Positions 2-40,389 of a DNA stretch of 46,391 nucleotides are shown here, in pieces; the first letter of the stretch is position 1; every line of letters starts with the position of its first letter. Below the pieces are notes generated by a model. It had not been told where the DNA came from, did not search any database, and saw only the letters and a program-made list of their open reading frames with translations. This stretch comes from Bacteroidota bacterium (GTDB lineage Bacteria; Bacteroidota; Ignavibacteria; SZUA-365), in the NCBI GenBank assembly GCA_029907355.1, contig JARYLZ010000016.1, positions 1 through 46,391 on the forward strand, written 5' to 3'. The position numbers and the translations under genes were made by a program.

Positions 2-400
2 GAGGGGTGTTACATGGACACGGACGGCAACGGGACGGTGAACGGGTACGACTACATCGCGATACGGGTGAACTGGATGAGGACGCACGGGACGCCGAAG
101 GCGTCGACGGGCGTGGTGGAGACGTTCGCGTTGGAGGGGAACTACCCGAACCCGTTCAACCCGACGACGACGATCCGGTACGCGTTGCCGGAGCGGAGCG
201 AGGTGGAGTTGCGCGTGCTGGACATGCTGGGCCGCGAGGTGGCGGTGCTGGTGCGCGGTACGGTCGAGGCCGGCGTGCACACGGCGGCGTTCGACGCGCG
301 TGGCTTGGAGAGCGGCGCGTACACGGCGGTGGTGCGGATGACGGGCCTGGAGACGGGCGCGACGTTCACGAAGGCCATCCGCATGTCGCTGGTCAAGTAA
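2..400 (+). CDS. C-terminal end of a secreted protein with dockerin-like and T9SS sorting domains (5' truncated by window)
   Basis: Only the last ~132 residues are visible; the open frame enters from the left edge, so the ATG at 14 is probably internal. The segment DTDGNGTVNGYDY has the spacing of a dockerin or EF-hand calcium loop, as often found just before the sorting domain. It is followed by NYPNPFNPTTTIRYALP, then LDMLGREVAVLV and SGAYTAVVRM, the three conserved blocks of a T9SS type A C-terminal sorting domain, and it ends in K. Family knowledge: this domain directs transfer across the outer membrane and is then cleaved. What the passenger does cannot be seen. A strong terminator follows 45 bases downstream. 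Confidence 0.85.
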   Translation, partial: EGCYMDTDGNGTVNGYDYIAIRVNWMRTHGTPKASTGVVETFALEGNYPNPFNPTTTIRYALPERSEVELRVLDMLGREVAVLVRGTVEAGVHTAAFDARGLESGAYTAVVRMTGLETGATFTKAIRMSLVK

Positions 401-1451: not shown

Positions 1452-1602
1452 ACGCGCGGGGAGACGTCCGCTCTTACTGCCGGTTTTTTCTCCGGAAAAG
1501 GAATCGTACTTTTGGAGACGTGTCGGCGTGTTTTTCAATCTCCTTTACGATTGACGAGCGACGCAAAATAAACACCGCACCTCCCATGCCTTCCGGTTTT
1601 TC

Positions 1603-3540
1603 ATGAACGACCCCATCGCAGAGTTCCGCTTCAAACCTTTCCGAGAGATGACCGACGAGGATTACCGCCTCATCGGGTTTCGATCGGGACTCGAGATCCA
1701 TCAACAATTGCTGACGGAGAAAAAGCTCTTCTGCCGCTGCCCCGCCGGCCTGTACAGCGATCATTACAACGCGGAAATCCTGCGTGAGATGCGCCCGACG
1801 CTATCCGAGCTCGGTGAGTACGACGGGACGGCACTCATGGAGTTCAAGACGAAAAAGGAGATCGTCTACCGCATCAACTACGAGACGGTCTGTACGTACG
1901 AGATGGATGACACCCCGCCGTTCGAGCTGAACGAGGAAGCCCTGGATATCGCCATCGGCATCGCGATGCTCTACCGGTGCTCTCTGGTGGACGAAATCCA
2001 CATCGCACGCAAGCAATATTTGGACGGGAGCATCCCGACGGGATTCCAGCGGACGACCATCGTGGGCGTGGAAGGGAGCATCCCTTACAAGGACCGCGAG
2101 ATCCGCATCGTCCAGCTCGGCCTCGAGGAAGATGCTTGCCGCGAGGTAAGCGACCGCTACCACCGCCGCGTGTATATCACGGACCGCCTCGGCATGCCGC
2201 TCATCGAGACCGTCACGGGTGCGGACATGCGCACGCCTCACGAGATCGCCGAAGTCGCCGACTTATGCCGCCGCATCGTCCGAAGCACGGGACAGGTCCG
2301 CACCGGCATCGGCGCGGCGAGGCAGGACGTCAACGTCAGCGTGACGGGCGGCACGAGAATCGAGATCAAGGGTGTCCCGCGCATCCCGGCGATTCCCCTC
2401 CTGACCTATAACGAGGCGATGCGCCAGTGGAACCTTCTCCGGCTGAAACGCGAACTGGAACGGCGCGGCATTACCGCGGAGACGTTCCGGAGCAGGACGG
2501 CGGACGTGACGCAAGCCGTGCGGAAGACGCGGTACCGTCCCCTCGCCCAAGCCCTCGCAAAGGGCTTCCAAGCACGCTGCGTCGTTCTCGAAGGTTTCCG
2601 CGGTCTCCTCGCATGGGAAACGCAGACCAACACCCGTTTCGGGAAAGAGATTTCGGACCGTGTGCGCGTCATCGAGTGCTTGATGGATCTGCCCAACATC
2701 GCACACAGCGACGGACCGGAAAAATCCCTCCCCCGCACGGAATGGAAGGCTCTGCGGACCGATCTGGCTGCGGGCGAGGACGACACCCTCGTCATTGTCT
2801 GGGGGCCCGAGACCGACGTCGAAACCGGCGCGAAAGAAATCGCCATCCGGGCGAGAGAAGCCGCCATCGGTGTCCCCTCCGAGACGCGGCAGGCCCTCAA
2901 GGACGGCACGAACGGTTTCGAACGCATCCTGCCCGGCCCCGACCGCATGTACCCCGACACGGATCTCCCGCCGAAGCGGATCACGCAGGAAAGGCTCGAG
3001 CGCATCCGCGCGACGCTCCCCGAACCCGTCTGGGAGCGGGAACGCCGCTACCGGGAACTGGGCGTCCCGCCGGATACCATCGTCCCACTCTCCATTTCCC
3101 CGTACGCCGCCCTTTTCAACCGGCTCGTGACGGGAAAAAACGTGGAACCCGTCCGCGCTGCGGTAGCCCTCGTCCAGTACACGAAGAGACTCGCCCGCCG
3201 ATACGGGAAAGACAACGGGCTCGCACCGGAAACCGTAGAGGGGATATTCGATGCTTGCATTGCCGGCAGACTCGCGTGGGATGCCATTCTCCCCGCGATG
3301 GATGCCGCTGTGCGCCGCGGTTCCTTCGATGCCCTCAGCCTCCCCCCGCCATGCACGGATGAGGAAGCCGACGGCGTGATCCGCGAGGAAGCGGCTTTCT
3401 TGCGGGAGAACCCGCCCAAGCGGCCGGAACGGTTTGGAGAGATCTTGATCGGCCGCGCCATGCGCAGGCTTCGCGGCAGAATCCCGGCTCCCGTCGTGGT
3501 CGAGCGCGTGCGTCGGTTGCTCGAGGAGGAAAGGCGATGA
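1603..3540 (+). CDS. gatE: Glutamyl-tRNA(Gln) amidotransferase subunit E (archaeal type)
   Basis: This 645-residue protein has the length and architecture of GatE, the tRNA-binding and amidating subunit of the archaeal GatDE complex that converts Glu-tRNA(Gln) to Gln-tRNA(Gln). Near residues 26-43 is GLEIHQQLLTEKKLFCRCP; the IHQQL form distinguishes GatE from bacterial GatB. Next come the GatB/E catalytic core (FELNEEALDIAIGIAMLY, QYLDGSIPTGFQRT, RQDVNVSVTGGTRIEIKG), a central insertion of the AspRS GAD type (about 285-420), the GatE-like MYPDTDLPP motif, and a helical YqeY-like tail. The stop overlaps the gatD start by four bases (ATGA), implying translational coupling. Codon use looks like its neighbours, so a transfer, if it happened, is not recent. 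Its presence in a bacterial contig is unusual. Confidence 0.93.
   Translation: MNDPIAEFRFKPFREMTDEDYRLIGFRSGLEIHQQLLTEKKLFCRCPAGLYSDHYNAEILREMRPTLSELGEYDGTALMEFKTKKEIVYRINYETVCTYEMDDTPPFELNEEALDIAIGIAMLYRCSLVDEIHIARKQYLDGSIPTGFQRTTIVGVEGSIPYKDREIRIVQLGLEEDACREVSDRYHRRVYITDRLGMPLIETVTGADMRTPHEIAEVADLCRRIVRSTGQVRTGIGAARQDVNVSVTGGTRIEIKGVPRIPAIPLLTYNEAMRQWNLLRLKRELERRGITAETFRSRTADVTQAVRKTRYRPLAQALAKGFQARCVVLEGFRGLLAWETQTNTRFGKEISDRVRVIECLMDLPNIAHSDGPEKSLPRTEWKALRTDLAAGEDDTLVIVWGPETDVETGAKEIAIRAREAAIGVPSETRQALKDGTNGFERILPGPDRMYPDTDLPPKRITQERLERIRATLPEPVWERERRYRELGVPPDTIVPLSISPYAALFNRLVTGKNVEPVRAAVALVQYTKRLARRYGKDNGLAPETVEGIFDACIAGRLAWDAILPAMDAAVRRGSFDALSLPPPCTDEEADGVIREEAAFLRENPPKRPERFGEILIGRAMRRLRGRIPAPVVVERVRRLLEEERR
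3523..3534 (+). promoter_or_regulatory. Ribosome binding site of gatD inside the end of gatE
   Basis: The purine-rich run GAGGAGGAAAGG ends two bases before the gatD ATG at 3537, placing the AGGAGG core seven bases upstream. It lies within the last codons of gatE and fixes the gatD start at the four-base overlap. Confidence 0.8.
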
Positions 3541-4922
3541 CAGCGAACGACTACAAGGGATATCGCGGCGAAGCTTTGGCCGCGCTCCAGAAATTCCAAG
3601 CACCCGTGTGGAGCGATGTGGAAATCACGACGGACAAGGGTTCCTTCACGGGAATCATCCTCCCGCGCTCGGAAACCGCCGATCCCCTTCACGTGGTCAT
3701 CAAGCTCCGCTCCGGCTACAACATCGGGATCAACGCCGCGGGGATCCGCTCCATCACGCTGCAAGGGCGAAAAGAAGCGCATTACAAGATCCCCGAAAAA
3801 GAGTTCCCGTACGACCCGAAGAAGCCGCGCGTCAAACTGCTCGGCACGGGCGGTACGATCGCAAGCAGGTTGGACTATCGAACCGGTGCGGTCATTCCGG
3901 CATTCTCGCCGGGCGAACTCTACGGCTCCGTCCCCGAGCTCGCCGACATCTGCAACCTCGAGACGGAGAAGCTCTACGGCGTTTTCAGCGAGAACATGGG
4001 ACCCGAGCAATGGCGTGGCACGGCGGAAGCGATCGGGCGCGAGATCGAACGCGGCGTGCAGGGCATCGTGATCGGGCATGGTACGGATACGATGCACCAC
4101 ACAGCGGGCATCCTCACCTACATGGTACAGAACTCTCCGGTGCCCATCGTCATGGTCGGTTCCCAACGCTCGAGCGATCGCCCCTCGTCCGATGCGGCAC
4201 TGAATCTCATGCACGCCGTGAAAACCGCGGCGGAGAGCGACATCGCCGAGGTCATGGTCTGCATGTTCGGGCCGACTTCCAACATGTACGGGCTGCTCCA
4301 CCGCGGGACACGGGTCCGGAAAATGCACTCCAGCTACCGTTCCACGTTCCGCACCATCGGCGACATCCCCCTGGCGATGGTAAGCCGTGAGAAAATCACG
4401 CCGCTCCGGCACGATTACGCCCGGCGCCGGAGCGATAAGAACGTGACGATCAACACCGCGTTCGAGGAGATGGTCAGCATCGTCTACTACTACCCCAACA
4501 TGCGACCGGACATTATCGACGCGCTGATCGACAACGGCTACAAGGGAATCGTCATCGCCGGCACGGGGCTCGGGCACGTGAACAAGCCTTTGTACCCCTC
4601 CATCAAACGCGCCCATGAAAAGGGAATCGCGATGTACATGACGGTGCAAACGCTCTGGGGTTACGTTCAGATGTACGTATACGATACGGGCCGCGACTTG
4701 ATGGAACTGGGAATCGTCCCGGCTTCGAACATGCTCCCTGAAGTCGCATACGTCAAACTCGGTTGGGCGCTGGGACAGACTTCGGACCTCGAGGAAGTAC
4801 GCCGCATCATGCTGACGCCTATCGGCGGGGACATCACCGAACGGGAACCGCATAACGGCTACCTCATCCTCCAGGGCGGCATCCCGGAAGTCGAAGAATT
4901 CATCTCCCGAACGTGGAAATGA
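3537..4922 (+). CDS. gatD: Glutamyl-tRNA(Gln) amidotransferase subunit D (archaeal type)
   Basis: This 461-residue protein has the two-part structure of GatD: an N-terminal beta-barrel domain (about 20-95) that plain asparaginases lack, then an L-asparaginase-like domain. The asparaginase active site is complete: TGGTIAS with nucleophile candidate Thr107, HGTDT with Thr183-Asp184, and a Lys near 262 in RVRKMHSS. Thr107 to Thr183 is 76 residues, as in characterised archaeal GatD. Family role: it hydrolyses glutamine and channels ammonia to GatE. It is translationally coupled to gatE and they form a two-gene unit. Converging thyX lies 87 bases downstream. A simple type I asparaginase is excluded by the N-terminal domain and the gatE partner. 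Confidence 0.93.
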   Translation: MTANDYKGYRGEALAALQKFQAPVWSDVEITTDKGSFTGIILPRSETADPLHVVIKLRSGYNIGINAAGIRSITLQGRKEAHYKIPEKEFPYDPKKPRVKLLGTGGTIASRLDYRTGAVIPAFSPGELYGSVPELADICNLETEKLYGVFSENMGPEQWRGTAEAIGREIERGVQGIVIGHGTDTMHHTAGILTYMVQNSPVPIVMVGSQRSSDRPSSDAALNLMHAVKTAAESDIAEVMVCMFGPTSNMYGLLHRGTRVRKMHSSYRSTFRTIGDIPLAMVSREKITPLRHDYARRRSDKNVTINTAFEEMVSIVYYYPNMRPDIIDALIDNGYKGIVIAGTGLGHVNKPLYPSIKRAHEKGIAMYMTVQTLWGYVQMYVYDTGRDLMELGIVPASNMLPEVAYVKLGWALGQTSDLEEVRRIMLTPIGGDITEREPHNGYLILQGGIPEVEEFISRTWK

Positions 4923-19286: not shown

Positions 19287-22200
19287 TCAACGGTACGAGA
19301 CGATATTCACGACGCGCGTCAGCATTCCGGCCGTCGCGTGGAGGCGGAGGACGTACGTGCCTGCGGGGAGAAACTTCCCGGTGCCGTCACAGCCGTCCCA
19401 TCGGACATGCCGCGTCCCTGCGGGGAGATCGGCATCGAGGAGCGTCCGCACCCGCCGTCCCATGATGTCGTAGACGTCGAGGCGCACACGGTCGGGCACA
19501 GGGAGAGAGAACGCGATGACGGTTCCCACATCCCGCCCTGGGGCGAACGGGTTCGGGTAGTTCTGGTCGAGAGCGAAGGGGACTGGGCTATAGCCGCCTT
19601 CCGGTTTGATGAAGACACGGCAAGTGCCCGCGCATGGCAACCGCACCGTCCCGGGAGATGCCGAAGTGAACTCGGCGAGGACGACGCTCTGTTCGTCGGT
19701 GACGATGTACTTCTGTGGGAAGGCGATTTTCGGTTCGAACGAGAGCACGACCTCGCCCTCCGCCCGGATATCGACGGCCGCTCCGTCCATGGGGATGTAG
19801 AGCGTCCCGCCCTCCGTCCTCGCGTCAAGGCTGTTCCCCGGAGGAGGAGCGGGGATCTGCAATCGATCGATGTCTTCCGGGGACATCCGCGAGCTCGTCA
19901 CGGCGAGCGATCGGACCGAGAACCCGTCGGAAATGTTCAGCGTCCCGACGACGTTCATCGAAGCCGCTGTCTTCACATATGCGATATCCGCTCCCGGTTC
20001 TCTCACGCCGCCGATGCTTTCCATCCTGAGCTCCGTTCCGCGCTCGACGCGCACCCAGTACCCTTTCCCGGGTTCGACCATGCTGGGAACAACGTACCCC
20101 TGGGCGGGGTTGTAGCCGAAGATGGCGCGCATGCCGCCCGCCGGATTCTGGTGTATTCCGGCGACGGGGATCGGCCGCGAGATGCACCCGATGAGGTTCC
20201 ACCCCCAACCGTAAGGCTCGCCGATCCCGCTCAAGGACTTCCACTCGAAGACGAGCTTCTCCACCCCGAAATAGGATGTTTGCTTATCGCTGGTTCTCAG
20301 CCAGTAACCGTCGCCGAAAATCATCTCCGGTACGGAGACATAGTTGCCGGTCGACTGGTCGAACCCGTAGAGGCTGGTGAGCGGATCGGAAAAGATGGTG
20401 CTCGTCGAGGGGTCGGCAATCTCCAGCGGGAGCGAGATGAGCTCCCAGTCCCCGGTGTGCTGCTGGACGAAGAGAACGCCCCTGTTGTTCCCGGTCGGGA
20501 GCGGGATGCGCACGTGCACGGAAATCGTGTCCTTGCGCGTATTCTCTTCCTGCTGGTCATTGACGACGACGATTTCCCGATCCTCGTCCGGGTCGTCGGG
20601 GTCGGTGCAAAGACGGTACAGGAGCATGTTCGGGAGCTGGAGCATCTGCGAGACGTTCGCCGGGCGCCATTCGCCGGACTTGCTCTTTTCGAACAACCTG
20701 CACTGGTAAGGATTGTAAAGCGGGTACAGTTCGTTCGTCTTCCGGTCGCGGAACTGCAGGCCGAACTCGAAGCAGGGGAATCGCGAGGGGGTGTCGCGCA
20801 CCGGAATGACGACGACCTCCGGATCCTGCGTCCTCTCCGGACAGGTCGGCGCTTTCACGACGATACGCAGAAGATAGACAGCCTCGTGGATGAGTGTGTA
20901 ACTGCTCGTCGCCCTCATGTCGACCGGCGTCGTGTCGCCCTGCACGTACATCGTGAAGGAGGCGTTCGGGGTCGTGGGGGGAGGAGGCCATGTCACTTGG
21001 ACCGGCGCCGTCCCCACGCCCGTCTGCACGCGGGCGAAATACGTATGGCTATCCTTGATCGCTCGGATGTCCGTGGGGCTGCCATTCGAGCCGCTGATGT
21101 TGATCCATCGCACGTCGAAGGTGGCCGCAGGCGGGAACGGGGGAAGATCGACCTGCCCGGGTTCGAGGCCGTCCCCTGCACCTTCTTCCATGCCGTAGTC
21201 GAGTTGGACTCTGCCCTGCCGCGAGTTGACGAAGTCGATGGTATGCCCCCATTTCGTCATCGGTTCCGGAATGCACGGTTTCTCCTTCCACACCGCGATG
21301 ATCTTCTTGCTCCGCCACATCGTGACGGCGAGGGGGTTCGTCGTCGTCGACGTGTCGTTTTCCCAGCCCGCGAAAAGGTATGTCGCGGAGTTGATGGCCT
21401 GGATGTTGACGACGCTCCCGATCGGGTGGAGTGTCCTCTCCGAGAACGTGCCGTCCGGGCCGTGCGGGTAGATGATGACCAGCTCGGCGAATTGCGGGTC
21501 GACCGGTTTCATTTTCACGCCGATTTCGTACTCGCCCGCCGGGATGTTCGAATTGATGAGTATTCTCGTGGGATTTTCGTTCGGGTTTTCGAGGATACCA
21601 GACCTCGGGAGATCCCAGCCGTCGAACGAAAAACCTGCCGGAGGATCGTACCGGAGATCGAACATCCTCGGCACACGCCTGTCGAGCCCTTCCTGGAAGG
21701 CTGTGCCGGGGATCTTCGAGATGAGGAGCCCGTTGAGCGGTTGTATGAGGGCGAGCTTGATGCACTCGTCGCAGTGCGCGATGGTTGCCGTATTCAACTT
21801 CCGTTCGACGTCGATCGTGTACTCGCCGAAACCGAAGTGACCGTCGCTGGGTTCAACCAGGTAATAGCTGATGTAGTCCGAACTGATCACCGGTTCGACG
21901 CTGACGATGTACTCGCCGTCGGTGGTCAGTTTGAGTTTGTAGCGCCCTGCGCCCTGGGCGACGGCGTTGATGTATGTCGTCTCGCCCGCCCTCCGTGCAC
22001 GGAATCTGGGCTGGAAGTTGGATCCTTCCCGCACCTGCAGGAGAAGGCTGAGATGTTCCCCGAAGACGCCGCTGCTCAAATTGATGACGGTGATACGGTA
22101 GTAATCGGACTTCGGCACATACCACGACCACTCGCCCGGCCGTGGACTGATCGGGCATGCAGCTTTGATGGAGTATGCGGCCATGCCCGAGCCCGAGGAG

Positions 22201-24389
22201 GGGAGCGTTTTCGGTGAAGTCGATGAGTTCGGCTCATAGGAGTCTGCACAGTAGACCGTGTCGGCGGGCGATGCGGGCCGTGTCGTGATCTCCGCGACGT
22301 CCGACGGCGTGCCCCGTACCGTGTTGAAGTAGCCGACGATCCGGAAGCGGTACGTCACACCCGGCATGACGGGGACGATTACCCCCAATGAGTTCCGGAC
22401 GTGGGTAATGAGGACGCCGGTCCATTGGTTGATGCCGACGCGGTTCGGGGAAAGTATGGGATCGATCTCCATCCAGTTGCCCGGCGACACCTCCCGCTCG
22501 ATCTTCGTCTCGGTTCTGTCCATGTCGTATTTGTTGAGCCAGCGGAGCGCGATGGCGGGGGCCGGGGACGCCGAATTGTCGGCGGGGGCGAGGTGCGCCT
22601 GGAGCGTGTGGTTCACCGCGAAGACGTCTGGCGGCGAGTTCGTGTATACCGCTTTAATATCGACGACTGGATCCGACTGGGTCGACGTGTACTCGTAGGA
22701 AGAGAGTTCCGTCCCGGCCCACATGATGTTCGTCGTTGTGCCGCTCTTCCTCTTCACTTCCCAGTAGTCGAAATACCATGTCGTGCCCGAAATGTTTCGC
22801 GTCAGGGGCACCGTGACCCTGTTGCAGTGGTCGTATTCGAGGGGGATGCACATCGTCTTCGACCACGTGCGCGTCGCCTTCCCATACGACGAATTGTCGC
22901 AGGTCTTGATGGTGAACTCGCCGTTGGCAGGGCTGGTCGAGATGCATCGCAGGGGTGTGATGTTCGAAGCGGAGAGCAGCCCGACGTGTACGGGCATGGC
23001 GGTGCTCGTCCCGCCGAGGTAATTCCCCACCATCATGGCGTCGAAACCATGCATCTTCAGGCCCGGCCTTCCGTAAGCGTCTGCCGACTGCTCAGACTGA
23101 CAGTTGAGGTTGGCCACCCCCCGGTATGTATCCGAGCAGTTGTCGTTGCGGTATTCGTCCGGGGCACCCCAGAGATGGCCGACTTCGTGCGCGATGACGT
23201 TGCGCATGGGGGCTTCGTAGGGGTTGAGACCCGCCTGCCAGTAACGGACATCCAGGGCAGCGTAAATCCCTTCACGGTCACCGTTCCCCCACTGTATTAC
23301 CGATGCATGCGGCCAGATCCCCTCTCCTTCCGTACCCTTGTACGCAATACACACGAAGATGGACTGGTCTGCGTCGTGCGCATCCCGCACCTCGTTGTTG
23401 TAGTACCAGCCGTAAATCGGACCGAGAGGGAATCCGGAACTCTGCCAACCCAGCGGTAAGTCCCCCGTCAGAATATCCCATACACTAGGCGGACGGAGAT
23501 TGTTCACAATGGCCGGGATGAAGACGTTTTCACCGACACTCACCGGCTCTCCACTGATCTGCATCGCCCAGTGGTTCGGGCTGTAGTTGAGCCAAATCGT
23601 GGTCATGGACTTGCCGTACTTGGAGGCGAGACCAGTCCAGTACGTCATCGCGTCGAGGTGGAGGTTCCGGTAGCGGTTGTAGACGGTCATATCCCAGTTC
23701 CATGACCCTGTGCCCGACGCGCTTTCCACGAAGAAACTCGAGTGCACGACCAGCCCTTCCGGTTTCGTCCGCCGAGCGACTGTCGGGCCGGGGCCGCCCT
23801 GCGTCCCGTACTTTCCCGAAGGATCCTGGGGAACGCGGAGCTCCGGCCCGAGGCAGGGAGGTTGTTCGACAATCGTCGAGAGATACTCGAGCTCCCGCGC
23901 CCGCTCTTCGATTCTGCGGAGCTCTTCGGGGGTTTTCGTCCTCTTGACGAACGTGAGATAGTCGACCAGCGCTTCCTCGGCCTCGGCGACCTCCGGCGAT
24001 CGGGAGAAGTACGCACCGCCTCGGGCGGAGGGCACTTCATCCGCATGATACGATACCGAGCGCACGGCTACCGTCCCCAGCGCAGCGTTCAGGGACGTGG
24101 AACGGACAGCGTCGAGCGCTTCGCGGGGAACCCATCCCAGCCACCTCTGCGGCGAAGAGATGACCGCGATGAGAGCACCCTTTTCCGTCAGTTGCTTCCA
24201 GAGCGCACGGACTTCCTTCCAGTCCGTGCATGACGTTTCGATGATGGCCAGGTCCCTGTAATAGGCCTCCTCACCCGCCGTTTCGATATCCGGTGGGACG
24301 TATTTCGGGACCGGGAGCGCTTCCTGCGCCGAAACAATGCCGGAAAACGCCAGCAGGATGAAGACGAGCCAACGGAATCCTTTCGTCAT
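19287..24389 (-). CDS. Giant secreted metalloprotease-like protein with T9SS sorting domain
   Basis: From ATG 24389 (GAGGG upstream) the product is 1700 residues with signal peptide MTKGFRWLVFILLAFSGIVS, then AQE. A zinc-protease motif HEVGHLWGAPDEY lies at residues 401-413, matching HExxHxxGxxD (His401, Glu402, His405, Asp411), as in some metzincins. Later segments include fibronectin-III-like sandwiches (IALRWLNKYDMDRTETKIER, then TYRFRIVGYF), a PPC-like region (YCADSYEPNSSTSP), an InlB-type bacterial repeat (LFAGWENDTSTTTNPLAVTM, then WRSKKIIAVWKE), the shared PPFPPAATFDVRW block, paired GDWELISLPL / GWGWNLIGCI modules and a full T9SS domain (DQNYPNPFAPGRDVGTVIAF, VYDIMGRRVRTLL, PAGTYVLRL). 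It is likely an extracellular protease; its substrate is unknown. It is the first gene of the array. Confidence 0.88.
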   Translation of the reverse strand: MTKGFRWLVFILLAFSGIVSAQEALPVPKYVPPDIETAGEEAYYRDLAIIETSCTDWKEVRALWKQLTEKGALIAVISSPQRWLGWVPREALDAVRSTSLNAALGTVAVRSVSYHADEVPSARGGAYFSRSPEVAEAEEALVDYLTFVKRTKTPEELRRIEERARELEYLSTIVEQPPCLGPELRVPQDPSGKYGTQGGPGPTVARRTKPEGLVVHSSFFVESASGTGSWNWDMTVYNRYRNLHLDAMTYWTGLASKYGKSMTTIWLNYSPNHWAMQISGEPVSVGENVFIPAIVNNLRPPSVWDILTGDLPLGWQSSGFPLGPIYGWYYNNEVRDAHDADQSIFVCIAYKGTEGEGIWPHASVIQWGNGDREGIYAALDVRYWQAGLNPYEAPMRNVIAHEVGHLWGAPDEYRNDNCSDTYRGVANLNCQSEQSADAYGRPGLKMHGFDAMMVGNYLGGTSTAMPVHVGLLSASNITPLRCISTSPANGEFTIKTCDNSSYGKATRTWSKTMCIPLEYDHCNRVTVPLTRNISGTTWYFDYWEVKRKSGTTTNIMWAGTELSSYEYTSTQSDPVVDIKAVYTNSPPDVFAVNHTLQAHLAPADNSASPAPAIALRWLNKYDMDRTETKIEREVSPGNWMEIDPILSPNRVGINQWTGVLITHVRNSLGVIVPVMPGVTYRFRIVGYFNTVRGTPSDVAEITTRPASPADTVYCADSYEPNSSTSPKTLPSSGSGMAAYSIKAACPISPRPGEWSWYVPKSDYYRITVINLSSGVFGEHLSLLLQVREGSNFQPRFRARRAGETTYINAVAQGAGRYKLKLTTDGEYIVSVEPVISSDYISYYLVEPSDGHFGFGEYTIDVERKLNTATIAHCDECIKLALIQPLNGLLISKIPGTAFQEGLDRRVPRMFDLRYDPPAGFSFDGWDLPRSGILENPNENPTRILINSNIPAGEYEIGVKMKPVDPQFAELVIIYPHGPDGTFSERTLHPIGSVVNIQAINSATYLFAGWENDTSTTTNPLAVTMWRSKKIIAVWKEKPCIPEPMTKWGHTIDFVNSRQGRVQLDYGMEEGAGDGLEPGQVDLPPFPPAATFDVRWINISGSNGSPTDIRAIKDSHTYFARVQTGVGTAPVQVTWPPPPTTPNASFTMYVQGDTTPVDMRATSSYTLIHEAVYLLRIVVKAPTCPERTQDPEVVVIPVRDTPSRFPCFEFGLQFRDRKTNELYPLYNPYQCRLFEKSKSGEWRPANVSQMLQLPNMLLYRLCTDPDDPDEDREIVVVNDQQEENTRKDTISVHVRIPLPTGNNRGVLFVQQHTGDWELISLPLEIADPSTSTIFSDPLTSLYGFDQSTGNYVSVPEMIFGDGYWLRTSDKQTSYFGVEKLVFEWKSLSGIGEPYGWGWNLIGCISRPIPVAGIHQNPAGGMRAIFGYNPAQGYVVPSMVEPGKGYWVRVERGTELRMESIGGVREPGADIAYVKTAASMNVVGTLNISDGFSVRSLAVTSSRMSPEDIDRLQIPAPPPGNSLDARTEGGTLYIPMDGAAVDIRAEGEVVLSFEPKIAFPQKYIVTDEQSVVLAEFTSASPGTVRLPCAGTCRVFIKPEGGYSPVPFALDQNYPNPFAPGRDVGTVIAFSLPVPDRVRLDVYDIMGRRVRTLLDADLPAGTRHVRWDGCDGTGKFLPAGTYVLRLHATAGMLTRVVNIVSYR

Positions 24390-25150
24390 ACGGCCCTCGC
24401 GTGTTTGTGAAGAGAAGGAAGTAGGATGCTTCGAACAGTGGTCGCTCCCGATGATTCTGTTCGCGATGCCCGCCGACATTCAGGGGATCCTTATTTCACA
24501 AGCGGTATTTCCCCTTGTCATAAGGCCGAGTCCCCGAATGGATCGGGAACGAGGTTCTGTACCGCATCAGATTATTGTATTGAAAGATATCATTCTGCCG
24601 CCGAGATATCAACAAGAAAAATTCTTTCAATGGCTTTTTCCCTTCCTCTCTTGCGAGAAGATCCCGGAGAATCACCATGGGAGGCGATGGTACCCGTCCT
24701 TCCGATTCATCATGCAGCGATCGGCGTACCATCATCTTCGAAGGAACGAGGATGACGGCTTTTCATCGAGACGATCCCGATCATTTCGACCGGAAAAGCA
24801 ATGCGGACGGGACATCCTCGTTCTACGACCTCGTACGGTCACCTCCTGTCCATCGATTTCCTCGACAGATCGAACGGCTCCCTATTTTGTCCCAACGTAC
24901 GGGGGAACAACTCCCAGGCGATCCCGTGTTTTTCAAAACGACAGTATGGATATTTTTTACGGTGAAGAGCTAGTTTTGGGATATATTATATATTATTTTA
25001 CGTTTATCGGTTATCTGCCGGAATCAAGCGGTAACCCACATCTCCATCCAAGGACGGCCGTGATTAAACCCATTGCGCCACCTCTTGTCTTACGGATAGT
25101 GACGGAAACGAATGCGTCTTTACAAACACCATTTCATAGGAGGATTCACC
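24390..25150. other. Divergent gene-free region upstream of the secreted-protein array and the Spy-like gene
   Basis: No credible gene is visible in these 761 bases. The composition changes to AT-rich near 24590-24630 and especially 24945-25015, with a TTTTG followed about 20 bases later by TATTTTAC, loosely like the Bacteroidota -33/-7 promoter pair. That would suit the gene starting at 25151, but the match is weak. Upstream signals for the leftward array must also lie here. Confidence 0.4.
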
Positions 25151-31699: not shown

Positions 31700-33820
31700 T
31701 CAGGCGAGGTAATATCGGAGGACGTACTCCGAAACCATCCGGTCGGTGTTGAACTGCGGGATGAGGGTGACCATGGAATGCCGTATGCGGCGGATCCAAG
31801 CGCGCGGGATCCCGAACTCGTCGCGGTCGTAGAATTCGGGGATGACCTGTTCGGAAAGAACGCGGTACAACGACTCGGCATCGGCGGCGTCCTGCACGTC
31901 GGGGTCGGCAGGCGGCTCCGTCCCCCCGATCGCCCAGCCGTTCTCCCCGTCATAGCCCTCGCACCACCATCCGTCGAGGATGCTCAGGTTGAGCCCGCCG
32001 TGTATGAGGATTTTCATTCCGCTCGTACCGCTGGCTTCCATCGGTCTGCGGGGTGTGTTCAGCCAGACGTCCACGCCCGAGATCATGTGGCGGGCGACGT
32101 TGATATCGTAGTCATCGAGGAAGACGACTTTCCCGAGAAGCGCGGAATTCTTCGTGTGAGCGACGATCTGCTGGATGAAGCGTTTGCCTGCGTCGTCGCG
32201 CGGGTGCGCTTTCCCCGCAAAAATCAGCTGGATGGGCCGTTCGTCGTCGTGGAGGAGTTCCATGATGCGATTGAAATCGCGGAAGATGAGCGGCGCGCGC
32301 TTGTACGTCGCGAACCGGCGCGCGAAACCGATCGTGAGGGCATCCGGCGAGAGAATGGTATCCTGCACCGTGGTGAAATCGATACCGAGGCGCGTGTACT
32401 GGGCTTTCACTTTGCGCCGGACGTACTCGACCAAGTCGCGACGCAGACCGTAGCGCAATGCCCAGAGGTCTTCGTCCGACACGAGTTCCGGGTCGGCGAC
32501 CTGCTGCCAGATCGCCTTGCTCTTGAGGTAGTAGATCCATTTCTCCCCGAGGTGGCGCTGCCAGAAGACACGCGTGCGGTGGAACATCCAGCCGAGCATG
32601 TGGACGCCGTTCGTGCAATGCCCGATGGGCACCTGTTCCGCGGGGACGCCATACAGGTGCTTCCACATTTCGCGGGAGACGCGGCCGTGAAGCTCGCTCA
32701 CCGCGTTGGCGGCACGGGACATCCGGAGGGCCAGGACGGTCATGCAAAAGGGGTCCGAGGGATTCGCCGGGTTCTCCTGCCCATACGGGAGAATATCGCA
32801 GACCGTACGCCCGAGGGAACGGCACCACCCGTTCAACATGAACTCCATCAAGTCGGGGGTGAAGCGGTCGTGTCCTGCGGGGACGGGGGTGTGCGTGGTG
32901 AACACGCAGCGCGAGCGGACCCATCGCTCGGCGGTCTCGCGGTCTTCCCCATCGAGCATTCGCTCGCGCAGGAGCTCCATGGTGAGAAAGGCGCTGTGGC
33001 CCTCGTTCATGTGGTACACGGACGGGTACAAGCCGAGCGCGCGGAGAAAACGGACGCCGCCGATGCCGAGAACGATTTCCTGCATGATGCGTGTCGTGAG
33101 GTCCCCCCCATAGACACGCGCCGTGATCTCGCGGTGATGCAGGTCGTTTTCCGGCAGGTTCGTGTCGAGGAGGTAGATGACCGTGCGGCCTACGTTGACG
33201 CGGTACCCGCGCACGAGAACGGGATTGTGCCCGATATCGACCGAGACGACGACCGGCTTTCCATCCGCACCGACTACGAGTTCGACCGGGAGCTGATCGG
33301 GGTCGAGCATCGGGTAACTCTCGTGTTGCCAACCGTCGGGCGATATCGTCTGACTGAAATACCCGTTGCGGTAAAAGAGGCTGATGCCGACGAACGGCAC
33401 CCCGAGATCGCTCGCCGATTTCGTGTGATCCCCCGCAAGAACACCGAGTCCGCCGGAATAGATCGGCAAGCACTCGTGGAGGCCGAATTCCGCCGTGAAA
33501 TACGAGATCAGTTCACCACCCCGGCGGTTCTTCTGGGCATTCCACCAGGTGTCTTTCTTCATCATGTAGTCGCGGAACTGGGCGAGGATGTCCTCGACGC
33601 GTTCGAAGAACTCCTTCTCGCACAGCCGGGCTCGCAGTTCCTGGCGCGACACGCTGTTCATCACCGCCACGGCGTTGTGGTTCGACGACCGCCACTTCCG
33701 CTCGGAAAGCTGAAAGAAAAGGTCCTGGGCGTCCGGAGTCCAGGTCCACCACAGGTTGCGCGCGAGGGCGTGGAGGCCGTCGATCATCTCGTCGATGCGG
33801 TTCAGGGAAAACGATGGCAT
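31700..33820 (-). CDS. glgP: Alpha-glucan (glycogen) phosphorylase
   Basis: This 706-residue enzyme releases glucose-1-phosphate from glycogen or maltodextrin. It belongs to the alternative alpha-glucan phosphorylase form with an N-terminal DUF3417-like segment (ARNLWWTWTPDAQDLFF). Key stretches: SYFTAEFGLHECLPIYSGGL, HMNEGHSAFLTMEL, VFTTHTPVPAGHDRF, IGFARRFATYKRAPLI, MISGVDVWLNTPRRPMEASG and EASGTSGMKILIHGG, whose Lys is the pyridoxal-phosphate site. The start is 18 bases after the protease gene stop, so it may be cotranscribed with it despite unrelated function. No other glycogen gene is in the window. Cytoplasmic. Confidence 0.95.
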   Translation of the reverse strand: MPSFSLNRIDEMIDGLHALARNLWWTWTPDAQDLFFQLSERKWRSSNHNAVAVMNSVSRQELRARLCEKEFFERVEDILAQFRDYMMKKDTWWNAQKNRRGGELISYFTAEFGLHECLPIYSGGLGVLAGDHTKSASDLGVPFVGISLFYRNGYFSQTISPDGWQHESYPMLDPDQLPVELVVGADGKPVVVSVDIGHNPVLVRGYRVNVGRTVIYLLDTNLPENDLHHREITARVYGGDLTTRIMQEIVLGIGGVRFLRALGLYPSVYHMNEGHSAFLTMELLRERMLDGEDRETAERWVRSRCVFTTHTPVPAGHDRFTPDLMEFMLNGWCRSLGRTVCDILPYGQENPANPSDPFCMTVLALRMSRAANAVSELHGRVSREMWKHLYGVPAEQVPIGHCTNGVHMLGWMFHRTRVFWQRHLGEKWIYYLKSKAIWQQVADPELVSDEDLWALRYGLRRDLVEYVRRKVKAQYTRLGIDFTTVQDTILSPDALTIGFARRFATYKRAPLIFRDFNRIMELLHDDERPIQLIFAGKAHPRDDAGKRFIQQIVAHTKNSALLGKVVFLDDYDINVARHMISGVDVWLNTPRRPMEASGTSGMKILIHGGLNLSILDGWWCEGYDGENGWAIGGTEPPADPDVQDAADAESLYRVLSEQVIPEFYDRDEFGIPRAWIRRIRHSMVTLIPQFNTDRMVSEYVLRYYLA

Positions 33821-36861: not shown

Positions 36862-39800
36862 TCACTCCGCGGTGAAATACAGCAGTTCCTGTCCGGGGCG
36901 GATCGAGGGACCGAGTTTGTTCCAGCGTTCGAGGTCGCCGACGCTCACGCCGAGCCTCCGTGCGATCCCGTAGAGCGTATCGCCTTCCCGCACGACGTAC
37001 ACCTTCGAGGTTACTCCTCTCGGGCGGGTGCCGCCCGTCGATGCCGTATCCGCCGCTTCGGCTACACGCAGAACCTGCCCGACCTGTACGGTGTCATTCT
37101 TCAAACCGTTCCACTCCTTAATCTGCCGGACCGTCACGCCGAATTGACGGGAAATGCCGAAGAGATTGTCTCCGCGCTTGACGGTGTAGACGGCCGCCTG
37201 AGCCGACGGAGGTCCGTTGTTTCCGGCTGAAGGGGTGGAAGCCTGTGCAGCCCCTCCTGCAGCTGGGTCGCGGAGTCGGATCTCCTGACCGACAAGCACC
37301 TGCGCGTCCTTCAGATTGTTCCAGAGCATCAACTCTTCGACCGAAAGCCCGAACGTTTTCGCGATAGCCCAGAGATTATCCCCTTTCTTTACTGTATAGG
37401 AAGCGGGAACCGAATCCACTCGATTCTCATCGTGAGGCTTTTGCCCGGCGGCCGGTGAACCCGAAACCTTTTGTGCTCGCGTCGAGTCGGATTGTTGCGA
37501 AATACCCCCGCCTATCGGAACTGCATGATCGGAAGGTTTCCGCACCCGAAGTTTCTGCCCGGCACGGACGGAGTGCGAAATCAGCGCATTCCATCGGACC
37601 AAATCGTCGACCGTCACCCCATACTGTTGGGAAATCGACCAGAGTGTTTCCCCGGCACGGACGGTATGGATGGAATCGTCCCCCGAGTGGCGGCGGATCG
37701 GCGGCTCGATCGACGCAGCGTCAGGATGGGCAGACGCAGGGGAATCCTGCCCCTCTCCCGCCGAAGGCGAAGGGAGAGGCTCCGGGACACCCGATCCCCG
37801 ATCCATGGCAAGCGAAGCTCTGGTGGGTTTTTCCGCGGCCTCTGTTGCACGGACGATCGCGGAATCCGAAGCCGTTTTCGGTTTCGAAACCGTGGATGCC
37901 GTCGGTGGCGGGGAAGACTGCGTGTCGCGCAGAATCCGGAGTACTTTTCCCGCGCGGAGGCGTGCTTTTCCGAGATCGTTCCATTTCCGAAGACTTCTCT
38001 CCGACACCCGGTATTTCCGTGCGATGGACGCCAGAGACTCTCCTCGCTCGACGCGATGCAGGACGACACCGCTGCCATTGGAGTTCGAGGCATAGAATGC
38101 CTGGGGCGGAAGAGTACGACGGCTGACGGCATGCTGTTCCGCAAGCGCGATACGCTTGGCTTCCGCATCTTCCGCAGCGAGCTGTTCTGCGGTTTTCTCC
38201 GTGGTTCCGGGACGAAGCCAGACGACGAGGCGCTGCCCGACCCTCAGCGGCTCGTCCGGGCCGATGCCGTTCCACCTCATGAGATCCGCAACCGTCACCG
38301 AAAAACGGTTGGCGAGTCCGCCGAGCGTCATGCCCTCCTCGACGACGATGGTCCGCGGCTGACAGCCGTCCGTTCTGCGCAGGGTATCCCTCTGGCGGTT
38401 GACGACACCTCCAGCCGCCATGTTATCCATCGCGGTGGCGTAGGAAACATAGTCGAGCGGTTCCACGGAAGGGATGCGGATGGTCTGGCCGGGTTTGAGC
38501 CGTACGGCGTGCGCCATGCCGTTGGCTTCCTTCAATTGGGCAACGGTCAAGCCGTACCTGCGTGCGATTTTCGCGATGCTCTCCCCTTTCTTGACCGTGT
38601 GCGTTCCCATCTCCGCCGTCTTTACCGACGACACGTTGACGATGTTCGAAGCGAATGTTTCCGCGCGCCCTTTCGGGATCCGGATCTCGAAGGAACGAAC
38701 GTTGGGGGGCGTCACCGGCTGAAGGAGGAAGGGGTTGTAATCGAGGAATTCATCCCGCGTGATCCCCACGCACTCGGCGAGATCCTGGAGCCGGTAGGAT
38801 TTATCGATGGTGACGACGTCGTACTCGTATGGGGTGTGCGAATCGACAAGCGGGAGATCGTACGCTTCCGGGTTCAGGGCGATGATGGTCGCGGCGATGT
38901 AGCGGGGGACATAGTTCTGCGTTTCGAGGGGAAGGTATTCCTGGATGTCCCAGTAGGTCGGATTGGGGACGGAGGCTCGCTCGAGGGCGCGATCGATGCG
39001 CCCGCTACCCGCATTGTACGCCGCGAGGGCGAGGTGCCAGTCGCGGTAGCGGTTGAAGAGATCGCGCAGGTGTCTGGCTGCGGCGCGCGTCGCTTTGACG
39101 GGGTCCCGGCGGTCGTCGATATACCAGTCCCCTTGCAAACCGTACAACTCTCCCGTCGACTTGAGGAACTGCCAAAGGCCGATGCACTTCGCCGAAGAGC
39201 GTGCGTACGGGTTGACGCCGCTTTCGATCATCGTCAGGTAGATGAGTTCGTCGGGAAGCCCCTCCTCCTGCAGGATCGGCCGCATCAGCGGGAAATACCG
39301 GCTTGCGCGTTCGAGCCACCGGGTGAAAGTGCCCTTCATCCGCGTCGTGAAGAATACGATGTTCCGCTCGACATCGTCGTTGAGCGGGAGGGGAATAGTC
39401 GTGGGAGGCGGTTCGGCGAAGTGCATGCGCGTCAAATCCACCGTGTCCGTCTCCGCGGAGGGTCGGCGGATGAACTCGGCAGCCCGCTCCGGAATTTCCA
39501 GTCCTTGAGCGAGAATCGCTGATCCGCAGTGCGAATAGAGCGCTTCGAGCGAGAGGAGGATTTCCCGGTAACTCGCGTCGTCCTCGATATCCGGCAGGTA
39601 ACTCACGCGCTCGATGTACGCGAATGCCAGGTTGCATTCCATCACGGCGGTCACCGTGTCGAGCACCTGCAAGGATTTATTGGCGAGAACGACATGGAGG
39701 CGCGCCCGGTCCAGAGACCGGTCGTACTCCGCCAGATTGATGTCCGGGGGCTGAGGAATCGATGCCGCGTCGAACGGCGGGAGTGGAAGAGTACTGTCAC

Positions 39801-39990
39801 GGGAAACGGACGGCTCTCTCTCGACCCTCCGGTCGGGACCCTCGTCCCTCGTCACCACCCGTACGGTCGAACACCCCCCCACGATGAGCGCAGCGCAAAG
39901 GACGGTCGCAACGAGAACCCCGCTCGCAAGGTAAGCGAACGGGTTCCCCTCTCCGGCATCACCTGCCTTTCGCTCGTTCTTTTCTCTCAC
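36862..39990 (-). CDS. MltD-like lytic transglycosylase lipoprotein with seven LysM domains
   Basis: I choose GTG 39990, preceded by GAGGATT, giving 1042 residues; a TTG at 40062 would add 24. A lipoprotein signal ([20 protein letters not shown] then C40) points to membrane anchoring. Residues about 210-410 are the SLT/MltD domain with catalytic Glu256 in [20 protein letters not shown] and [17 protein letters not shown]. Seven LysM repeats follow (starts [63 protein letters not shown]), more than the one to five usual for MltD. Linkers are Pro/Ser/Ala-rich; the linker after LysM3 contains a translated palindromic repeat. It cleaves peptidoglycan glycan strands. Confidence 0.92.
37742..37779 (-). 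repeat. Dispersed palindromic repeat, copy 2, inside the transglycosylase gene
   Basis: CCTCTCCC (37752-37759) pairs with GGGAGAGG (37772-37779) around an inner GCCGAAGGC. Read on the minus strand the palindrome is followed by GGCAGGATT, the same tail as at 15148-15186. It is translated in frame as roughly [14 protein letters not shown] in the linker between LysM3 and LysM4, so the gene has tolerated the insertion. Confidence 0.65.
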
Positions 39991-40389
39991 CCGATTGAAT
40001 CCTCGAAAGAAGATGGACCCCAAACTTGCAATAGCTTGCACTTTGAGCACAGAAACCCACAACCGGCACCGAGTGCCCGGAACAGGAACCTAAAGATTCA
40101 CGAATAGAAAATCAATGCGATGGTAGAAATTTCCTGAAGAAAATTCACTTTGATGGCTGTTCCAATCCGCATATTAATCAAGGAAGTATCAGACGCCTAT
40201 AAAGTATTACTTTAGATGAGACGGGATGCGGGGAATCGCCCTTTCAGGTAGGATTTATCAATACGACAGCCCCATTTCCCCATTCTCACAGCGATCCCAT
40301 TTCGATAGCCCACACCTTGCGAAAGGGCAGGACAATGCCCTAGCCGTTATCGAGCAGCGAAAGGCAGCGTGTGCGAGGCGTCGGGAGAT
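39991..40389. other. Intergenic region upstream of the transglycosylase gene
   Basis: These 399 bases separate the glycosyltransferase operon end (40390) from the transglycosylase start. The part near 40080-40220 is distinctly AT-rich (for example TAAAGTATTACTTTAGATG), as expected for a promoter reading leftward. No gene, hairpin terminator or RNA was recognised. Confidence 0.4.

Follow-up and report, generated by a model that had tools for sequence, protein, structure and literature searches.

The window analysed here is a stretch of 46,391 nucleotides from a Bacteroidota bacterium of the class Ignavibacteria and comprises an entire contig (JARYLZ010000016.1, C77 in our set) of a draft genome of 3.25 Mb, which is 98.9% complete, consists of 173 contigs and has 3.65% contamination. 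Its forward strand carries two genes, gatE and gatD, for the subunits of GatDE, an amidotransferase that is regarded as archaeal. A first-pass annotation made from the sequence had described both genes as full-length and overlapping, and this was confirmed: gatE (1603-3540) encodes the kinase/transferase subunit of 645 amino acids and gatD (3537-4922) the asparaginase-type glutaminase subunit of 461 amino acids, both as intact open frames. The gatD start shares the tetranucleotide ATGA (3537-3540) with the gatE stop, and the motif GGAGG (3525-3529) lies seven bases upstream of this start, so that the two genes are putatively coupled in translation. The distance between gatE and gatD does not exceed 20 bp in 73 of 97 loci and 150 bp in 92 of them; in two relatives (L016:2846-9371 and L047:5221-9371) the genes are not adjacent, the distance being about 3.2 kb in the first and 0.86 kb in the second.

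The identity of GatD follows from matches to two NCBIfam equivalogs, NF003217 (512 bits, cut-off 310) and TIGR02153 (504 bits, cut-off 324), and from its active-site residues. The protein contains the N-terminal domain PF18195 (GatD_N; amino acids 26-74, positions 3612-3758, forward strand; Pfam, 51 bits) alongside both asparaginase domains. The residues T107, T183, D184 and K262, which the first-pass annotation had placed correctly, are invariant in 90 bacterial GatD sequences, apart from a single X at K262, and in both archaeal ones of solved structure. The glutaminase domain has the fold of type I asparaginases (TIGR00519, 386 bits), but the latter lack GatD_N, and a reading of the window protein as a plain type I asparaginase was rejected given the higher scores of the GatD models, the presence of GatD_N and the operon with gatE; the best plain asparaginase in the PDB yields 146 bits versus about 400 for GatD. 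The last residues of the protein (amino acids 437-461, positions 4845-4919, forward strand) form a stretch with the consensus EREPsNGYLI.QGGiPEVEeF in 111 bacterial GatD sequences. This stretch is conserved in bacteria and lies past the point where the archaeal chains of known structure stop; these chains have 435 and 438 amino acids and end opposite window residues 437 and 440.

GatE likewise exceeds the cut-offs of its NCBIfam equivalogs, NF003107 (517 bits, cut-off 456) and TIGR00134 (444 bits, cut-off 320). It is homologous to GatB of the GatCAB amidotransferase in the catalytic core and in the YqeY-like tail, but GatB has GatA and GatC as partners, whereas the partner of the window GatE is the asparaginase-type GatD. 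Reading this protein as GatB was rejected: it obtains 52-133 bits with GatB models, the cut-offs of which are 315-680, and the best of them gives 133 bits versus a cut-off of 338. In a profile search of the genome the GatE model scored 443 bits, while the GatB model scored 88 bits on the same frame and 578 bits on a separate, true GatB elsewhere in the genome. Thus the claim that both proteins belong with GatDE, not with GatB or plain asparaginases, is borne out by equivalog scores far above those of the competing models. The core residues E175, D177, E202, R240, D242, N244 and K256 are invariant in 90 bacterial and two archaeal GatE sequences.

Two further modules of GatE have diverged in sequence and are recognised mostly by position and predicted fold. 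The AspRS-like (GAD) insertion, placed by alignment to archaeal GatE, spans approximately amino acids 296-405 (2488-2817, forward strand); at E values of up to 0.1, PF02938 can be detected in 44 out of 50 GatE sequences from bacteria, and it is not significant in the window copy. The helical and YqeY-like tail module, putatively binding tRNA, covers approximately amino acids 479-645 (3037-3537, forward strand); the YqeY Pfam model is weakly detected in 45 of 50 bacterial sequences and, again, is not significant in the window copy. The AlphaFold2 model of the window GatE has a pLDDT (predicted local distance difference test score) of 87, with values of mostly 80-96 in the helical and tail region, and its best match in the PDB is archaeal GatE, 1zq1_C (507 columns, template modelling score 0.82 by target length, E 1.5e-45), 2d6f also being found. 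In the predicted structure the GatE cradle, the AspRS-like insertion and the helical and tail fold are retained, and the tail length is kept in most bacterial sequences. Overall, the bacterial proteins are like the archaeal GatDE of Pyrococcus abyssi (1ZQ1) and Methanothermobacter thermautotrophicus (2D6F) in domain order, active-site residues, GatD_N and predicted GatE fold, with identities of 46-48% for GatD and 34-36% for GatE; they differ in the strongly diverged helical/tail and AspRS-like modules and in the C-terminal stretch of GatD.

The first-pass annotation had further proposed that GatDE functionally replaces the usual enzymes, and that glnS and gatCAB would be missing from the genome. 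This did not hold. The genome encodes glutaminyl-tRNA synthetase (GlnRS; glnS, G000:C140:52327-53907, 746 bits), AsnRS (asnS, 628 bits), GatA (554 bits) and GatB (578 bits), as well as two GluRS genes, one near glnS (G000:C140, L138:4854-6290, reverse strand) and the other on a different contig (G000:C107, L139, about 1500-2948, forward strand). GatDE in this genome replaces no known enzyme, the ordinary tRNA-charging enzymes being present alongside, as in many related bacteria. The GluRS near glnS has the equivalent of Arg358 and the other one lacks it. As a marker of GluRS discrimination this residue is of doubtful use, since it varies in class genomes with and without GatE alike and, according to the literature, is not general. 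Two GluRS-like matches are also found in members of the window's family and order. In several genomes (G022:C20, G119:C285, G121:C13 and G117:C47) glnS and asnS are separated by no more than a few kilobases, in many cases with gltX nearby, an island-like arrangement of aminoacyl-tRNA synthetase genes, and in one genome, the sole such case seen, gatDE directly adjoins glnS (L144, G013:C45:504000-515500).

Coexistence of GatDE with GlnRS is a solid observation. Among 119 genomes of the window's class that are at least 90% complete, GatE exceeded the cut-off in 29, and one more had GatE in two pieces. GlnRS was above the cut-off in 29 of these 30 GatE-positive genomes versus 34 of the 89 others (Fisher p = 4.6e-9), a count that makes the link look stronger than it is, related genomes not being independent. 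At the family level, GlnRS was found in nine of nine families with GatE versus six of 13 without (p = 0.010). The only GatE-positive genome of the class without GlnRS, G092, also lacks AsnRS and has GatA; here a missing contig is likely, because in G022, of the same genus, a single contig carries both glnS and asnS with about 5 kb between them. In other lineages, GlnRS was present in 30 of 40 GatDE genomes picked from a public list, the remaining ten including several small drafts, three of which were also without a GluRS-like match. Six GatE-positive genomes of the class that are at least 97% complete (G063, G083, G090, G096, G104 and G113) have both GlnRS and AsnRS and no family-level GatA, a statement limited to GatA, since the search covered GatB indirectly and did not extend to GatC. 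The combination of GlnRS and AsnRS without detectable GatA implies that GatDE is needed for neither Gln nor Asn charging in these six genomes, where it nevertheless stays intact.

Ten genomes of the window's family were sampled, and GatE is above the cut-off in all of them as well as in one more genome of the same order; in three related genomes consisting of a single contig (G030, G101 and G106) gatE, glnS, gatA and asnS are found together on that contig. When 148 genomes from across the phylum were sampled, GatD was found in 12, every one of them in the window's class; as a control, the same search matched four archaeal control genomes and no bacterial one. Among 574 GatD relatives found in contigs of public genomes, the best 80 are without exception bacterial and include members of Ignavibacteria, Kapabacteria, Calditrichota, KSB1, Marinimicrobia, Zixibacteria, Krumholzibacteria, Aegiribacteria and Aminicenantes; as these were picked by similarity to the window GatD, they do not measure the full distribution. 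The suggestion that GatDE is more widespread in bacteria than usually stated is supported, many bacterial lineages carrying it.

In the phylogenetic tree, bacterial GatDE from phyla of the FCB group and Aminicenantes forms one clade, which is joined by a long, fully supported branch to two archaeal pairs; with only these two archaeal sequences, nesting within Archaea and a sister position cannot be told apart. The window's family is split between two positions in the tree, a sign of transfer between bacteria. We found no GatD in plasmids, which yielded asparaginases only, or in viral contigs, and an origin in mobile elements was rejected; so was joint transfer with GlnRS, the identities to the window being weakly correlated (0.37 for GlnRS and GatD, 0.22 for GlnRS and GatE; 17 genomes).

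The two subunits differ in conservation. The mean pairwise identity among bacteria is 80% for GatD and 61% for GatE, versus 57% and 52% in the archaeal pair. As judged from the alignments, this gap is located mainly in the putative tRNA-binding parts of GatE. Where the cores of two bacterial GatE sequences are 60-75% identical, their helical/tail modules share 19-26% of residues, roughly half the 43-52% reached at that core identity by GatB sequences taken from 21 genomes of the window's class; the single archaeal GatE pair has 37%. A poorly aligned tail may depress the GatE figure, although GatB was handled by the same procedure. In addition, about 55 positions per subunit are invariant in bacteria yet different in both archaea.

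Since the first-pass annotation had suggested the identity elements of tRNA(Gln) as a check, we read 16 tRNA-Gln sequences, two from the window's genome and 14 from relatives. All have U1-A72 and a normal acceptor stem, and the archaeal A1-U72 pair is absent from this sample, for which the search pattern missed some genomes. In the window's genome the UUG isoacceptor has U1-A72, G2-C71, G3-C70 and G73, and the CUG isoacceptor U1-A72, G2-C71, C3-G70 and G73. A73 replaces G73, the base used by Escherichia coli GlnRS, in some cases (CUG in L210, L213, L218, L219, L226 and L236; UUG in L222), both in genomes with GlnRS and in genomes without it. An isoacceptor special to GatDE genomes was rejected, as both types, including those with A73, occur in sampled genomes lacking GatE.

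The genes around gatDE in the window are bacterial, as had been noted in the first-pass annotation; domain matches confirmed ThyX, an MlaF-like ATPase and a C-terminal sorting domain of the type IX secretion system (T9SS). Around 110 gatD loci no widespread conserved neighbour hinting at function was found. The largest neighbour clusters mostly represent shadow frames of gatD or gatE, and after these come a PhoH-like gene, present in 11 loci, and an ATPase resembling ABC-F, encoded on the opposite strand in 10 loci; both were named by eye from the sequence alone. Elsewhere in the window, the tail of a T9SS-sorted protein (14-397, forward strand) and a protein of 1730 amino acids with a FlgD Ig-like domain at its end (19290-24479, reverse strand) suggest that this organism has type IX secretion. 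Other genes encode an alpha-glucan phosphorylase (31703-33820, reverse strand), which scores 702 bits with the Thermococcales maltodextrin phosphorylase model, below the equivalog cut-off, and a lytic transglycosylase (SLT) of 1066 amino acids with seven LysM domains (36865-40062, reverse strand).

Taken together, the sequences are best read as an authentic, catalytically intact but diverged bacterial branch of GatDE, which would act as a second amidotransferase beside GlnRS or may have been recruited elsewhere. Release of ammonia by GatD and activation and amidation of the Glu carboxylate by GatE are the established chemistry of the family. The bacterial subunits would assemble into a heterodimer, in which GatD would free ammonia from Gln (or Asn) and hand it to GatE, and GatE would phosphorylate and then amidate the gamma-carboxylate of Glu carried on tRNA. 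A relaxed or second GluRS would make Glu-tRNA(Gln), which GatDE would convert to Gln-tRNA(Gln). Such a supplementary or corrective role, in bacteria that charge tRNA(Gln) mainly by GlnRS, is the likeliest of the roles considered, and we give it about an even chance. It is the smaller step, and the retained fold of the tRNA-binding module and the family chemistry lend it support. A source of Glu-tRNA(Gln) is possible because there are two GluRS, one without the Arg358 equivalent. Several observations weigh against this role. The Arg358 equivalent varies too freely in this class to show whether a GluRS discriminates, and subunits of GatCAB, which could do the same job, are still present in most GatDE genomes. 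In Archaea, GatDE is reported to recognise the A1-U72 pair together with the D-loop (PMC9499178), and the tRNA-Gln sequences read here have U1-A72. The putative tRNA-binding module of bacterial GatE is, by sequence comparison, far less conserved than expected. The link between GatDE and GlnRS becomes weak once kinship is counted, as independent pairs, with the GluRS tree as a stand-in for kinship, give two or three cases for and none against and cannot reach significance.

Alternatively, GatDE may have been recruited to another acceptor, either a different aminoacyl-tRNA or a Glu carboxylate off tRNA, with recognition of tRNA(Gln) released and strong selection still acting on catalysis and on the delivery of ammonia. 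We regard this recruitment as a real though minority possibility. It would account both for the redundancy, as charging with Gln or Asn does not require GatDE in the six genomes without detectable GatA, and for the drift of the tRNA-binding module, which is far below GatB and the archaeal pair at equal core divergence; the positions invariant only in bacteria, the C-terminal stretch of GatD and the much slower evolution of GatD than of GatE also favour it. On the other hand, the fold and length of the tail are kept, the surroundings of gatDE contain no conserved gene that would suggest another pathway, and a Glu-tRNA amidase without tRNA choice would corrupt Glu codons, so that a new specificity would be required. 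The stricter version, that bacterial GatDE has lost the supply of Gln-tRNA(Gln) altogether and now amidates some other Glu-bearing acceptor, its catalytic core being nearly frozen while its tRNA-binding module drifts, is put forward tentatively. A division of labour, with GlnRS charging one tRNA(Gln) and GluRS with GatDE serving the CUG isoacceptor, which is without G3-C70 and in some lineages has A73, appears unlikely. The CUG tRNA, with C3-G70 or U3-A70 and sometimes A73, does differ from the identity set of Escherichia coli GlnRS (PMC9976931), and A. ferrooxidans provides a known case of isoacceptor-specific glutamylation (PMC3927822), but the same CUG type, including A73, occurs in GatE-less genomes with or without GlnRS, among them G111, which has GlnRS and no clear GatB or GatE. 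That GatDE, taken from Archaea, forms with a non-discriminating GluRS the sole route to Gln-tRNA(Gln), as first proposed, would fit an intact enzyme of a family typical of Archaea; it is very improbable in view of GlnRS in 29 of the 30 GatE-positive class genomes and the probable missing contig of the GatA-containing exception, and for this genome it is ruled out by glnS, with asnS, gatA and gatB also present. Finally, the fragmented draft and its contamination might suggest a chimeric assembly or archaeal contamination. This is refuted by GatE throughout the family, gatE and glnS on single-contig genomes, a bacterial clade far from the archaeal pair and the bacterial neighbours, leaving a negligible chance of such an artefact; the assertion that the contig is bacterial stands.

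The proteins are recognised by existing family models, and what appears to be new is bacterial GatDE beside GlnRS. According to a 2022 review, GatDE is archaeal only and is linked to the lack of GlnRS, which is absent from all archaeal species (PMC9499178), whereas the bacterial hosts considered here mostly have GlnRS; in a 2021 review, GatDE is restricted to those archaea that lack AsnRS (PMC8007984). GatCAB is known in bacteria beside both GlnRS and AsnRS, and a 2014 survey of 547 bacterial genera knew of no bacterium encoding both routes to Gln-tRNA(Gln) (PMC4206432). We found no report of GatDE in bacteria in the open-licence literature, an absence that is weak evidence. That numerous lineages of bacteria carry GatDE, in most cases beside GlnRS and in some without detectable GatA, bears on the claim of mutual exclusion between GatDE and GlnRS. 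If GatDE does serve a new acceptor, it would be, as far as the literature found goes, the first enzyme of the GatB/GatE family outside amide aminoacyl-tRNA synthesis. Annotation of such genes as Gln-tRNA supply enzymes may be wrong. Either two routes to Gln-tRNA(Gln) run in these bacteria, or GatDE has a second function.

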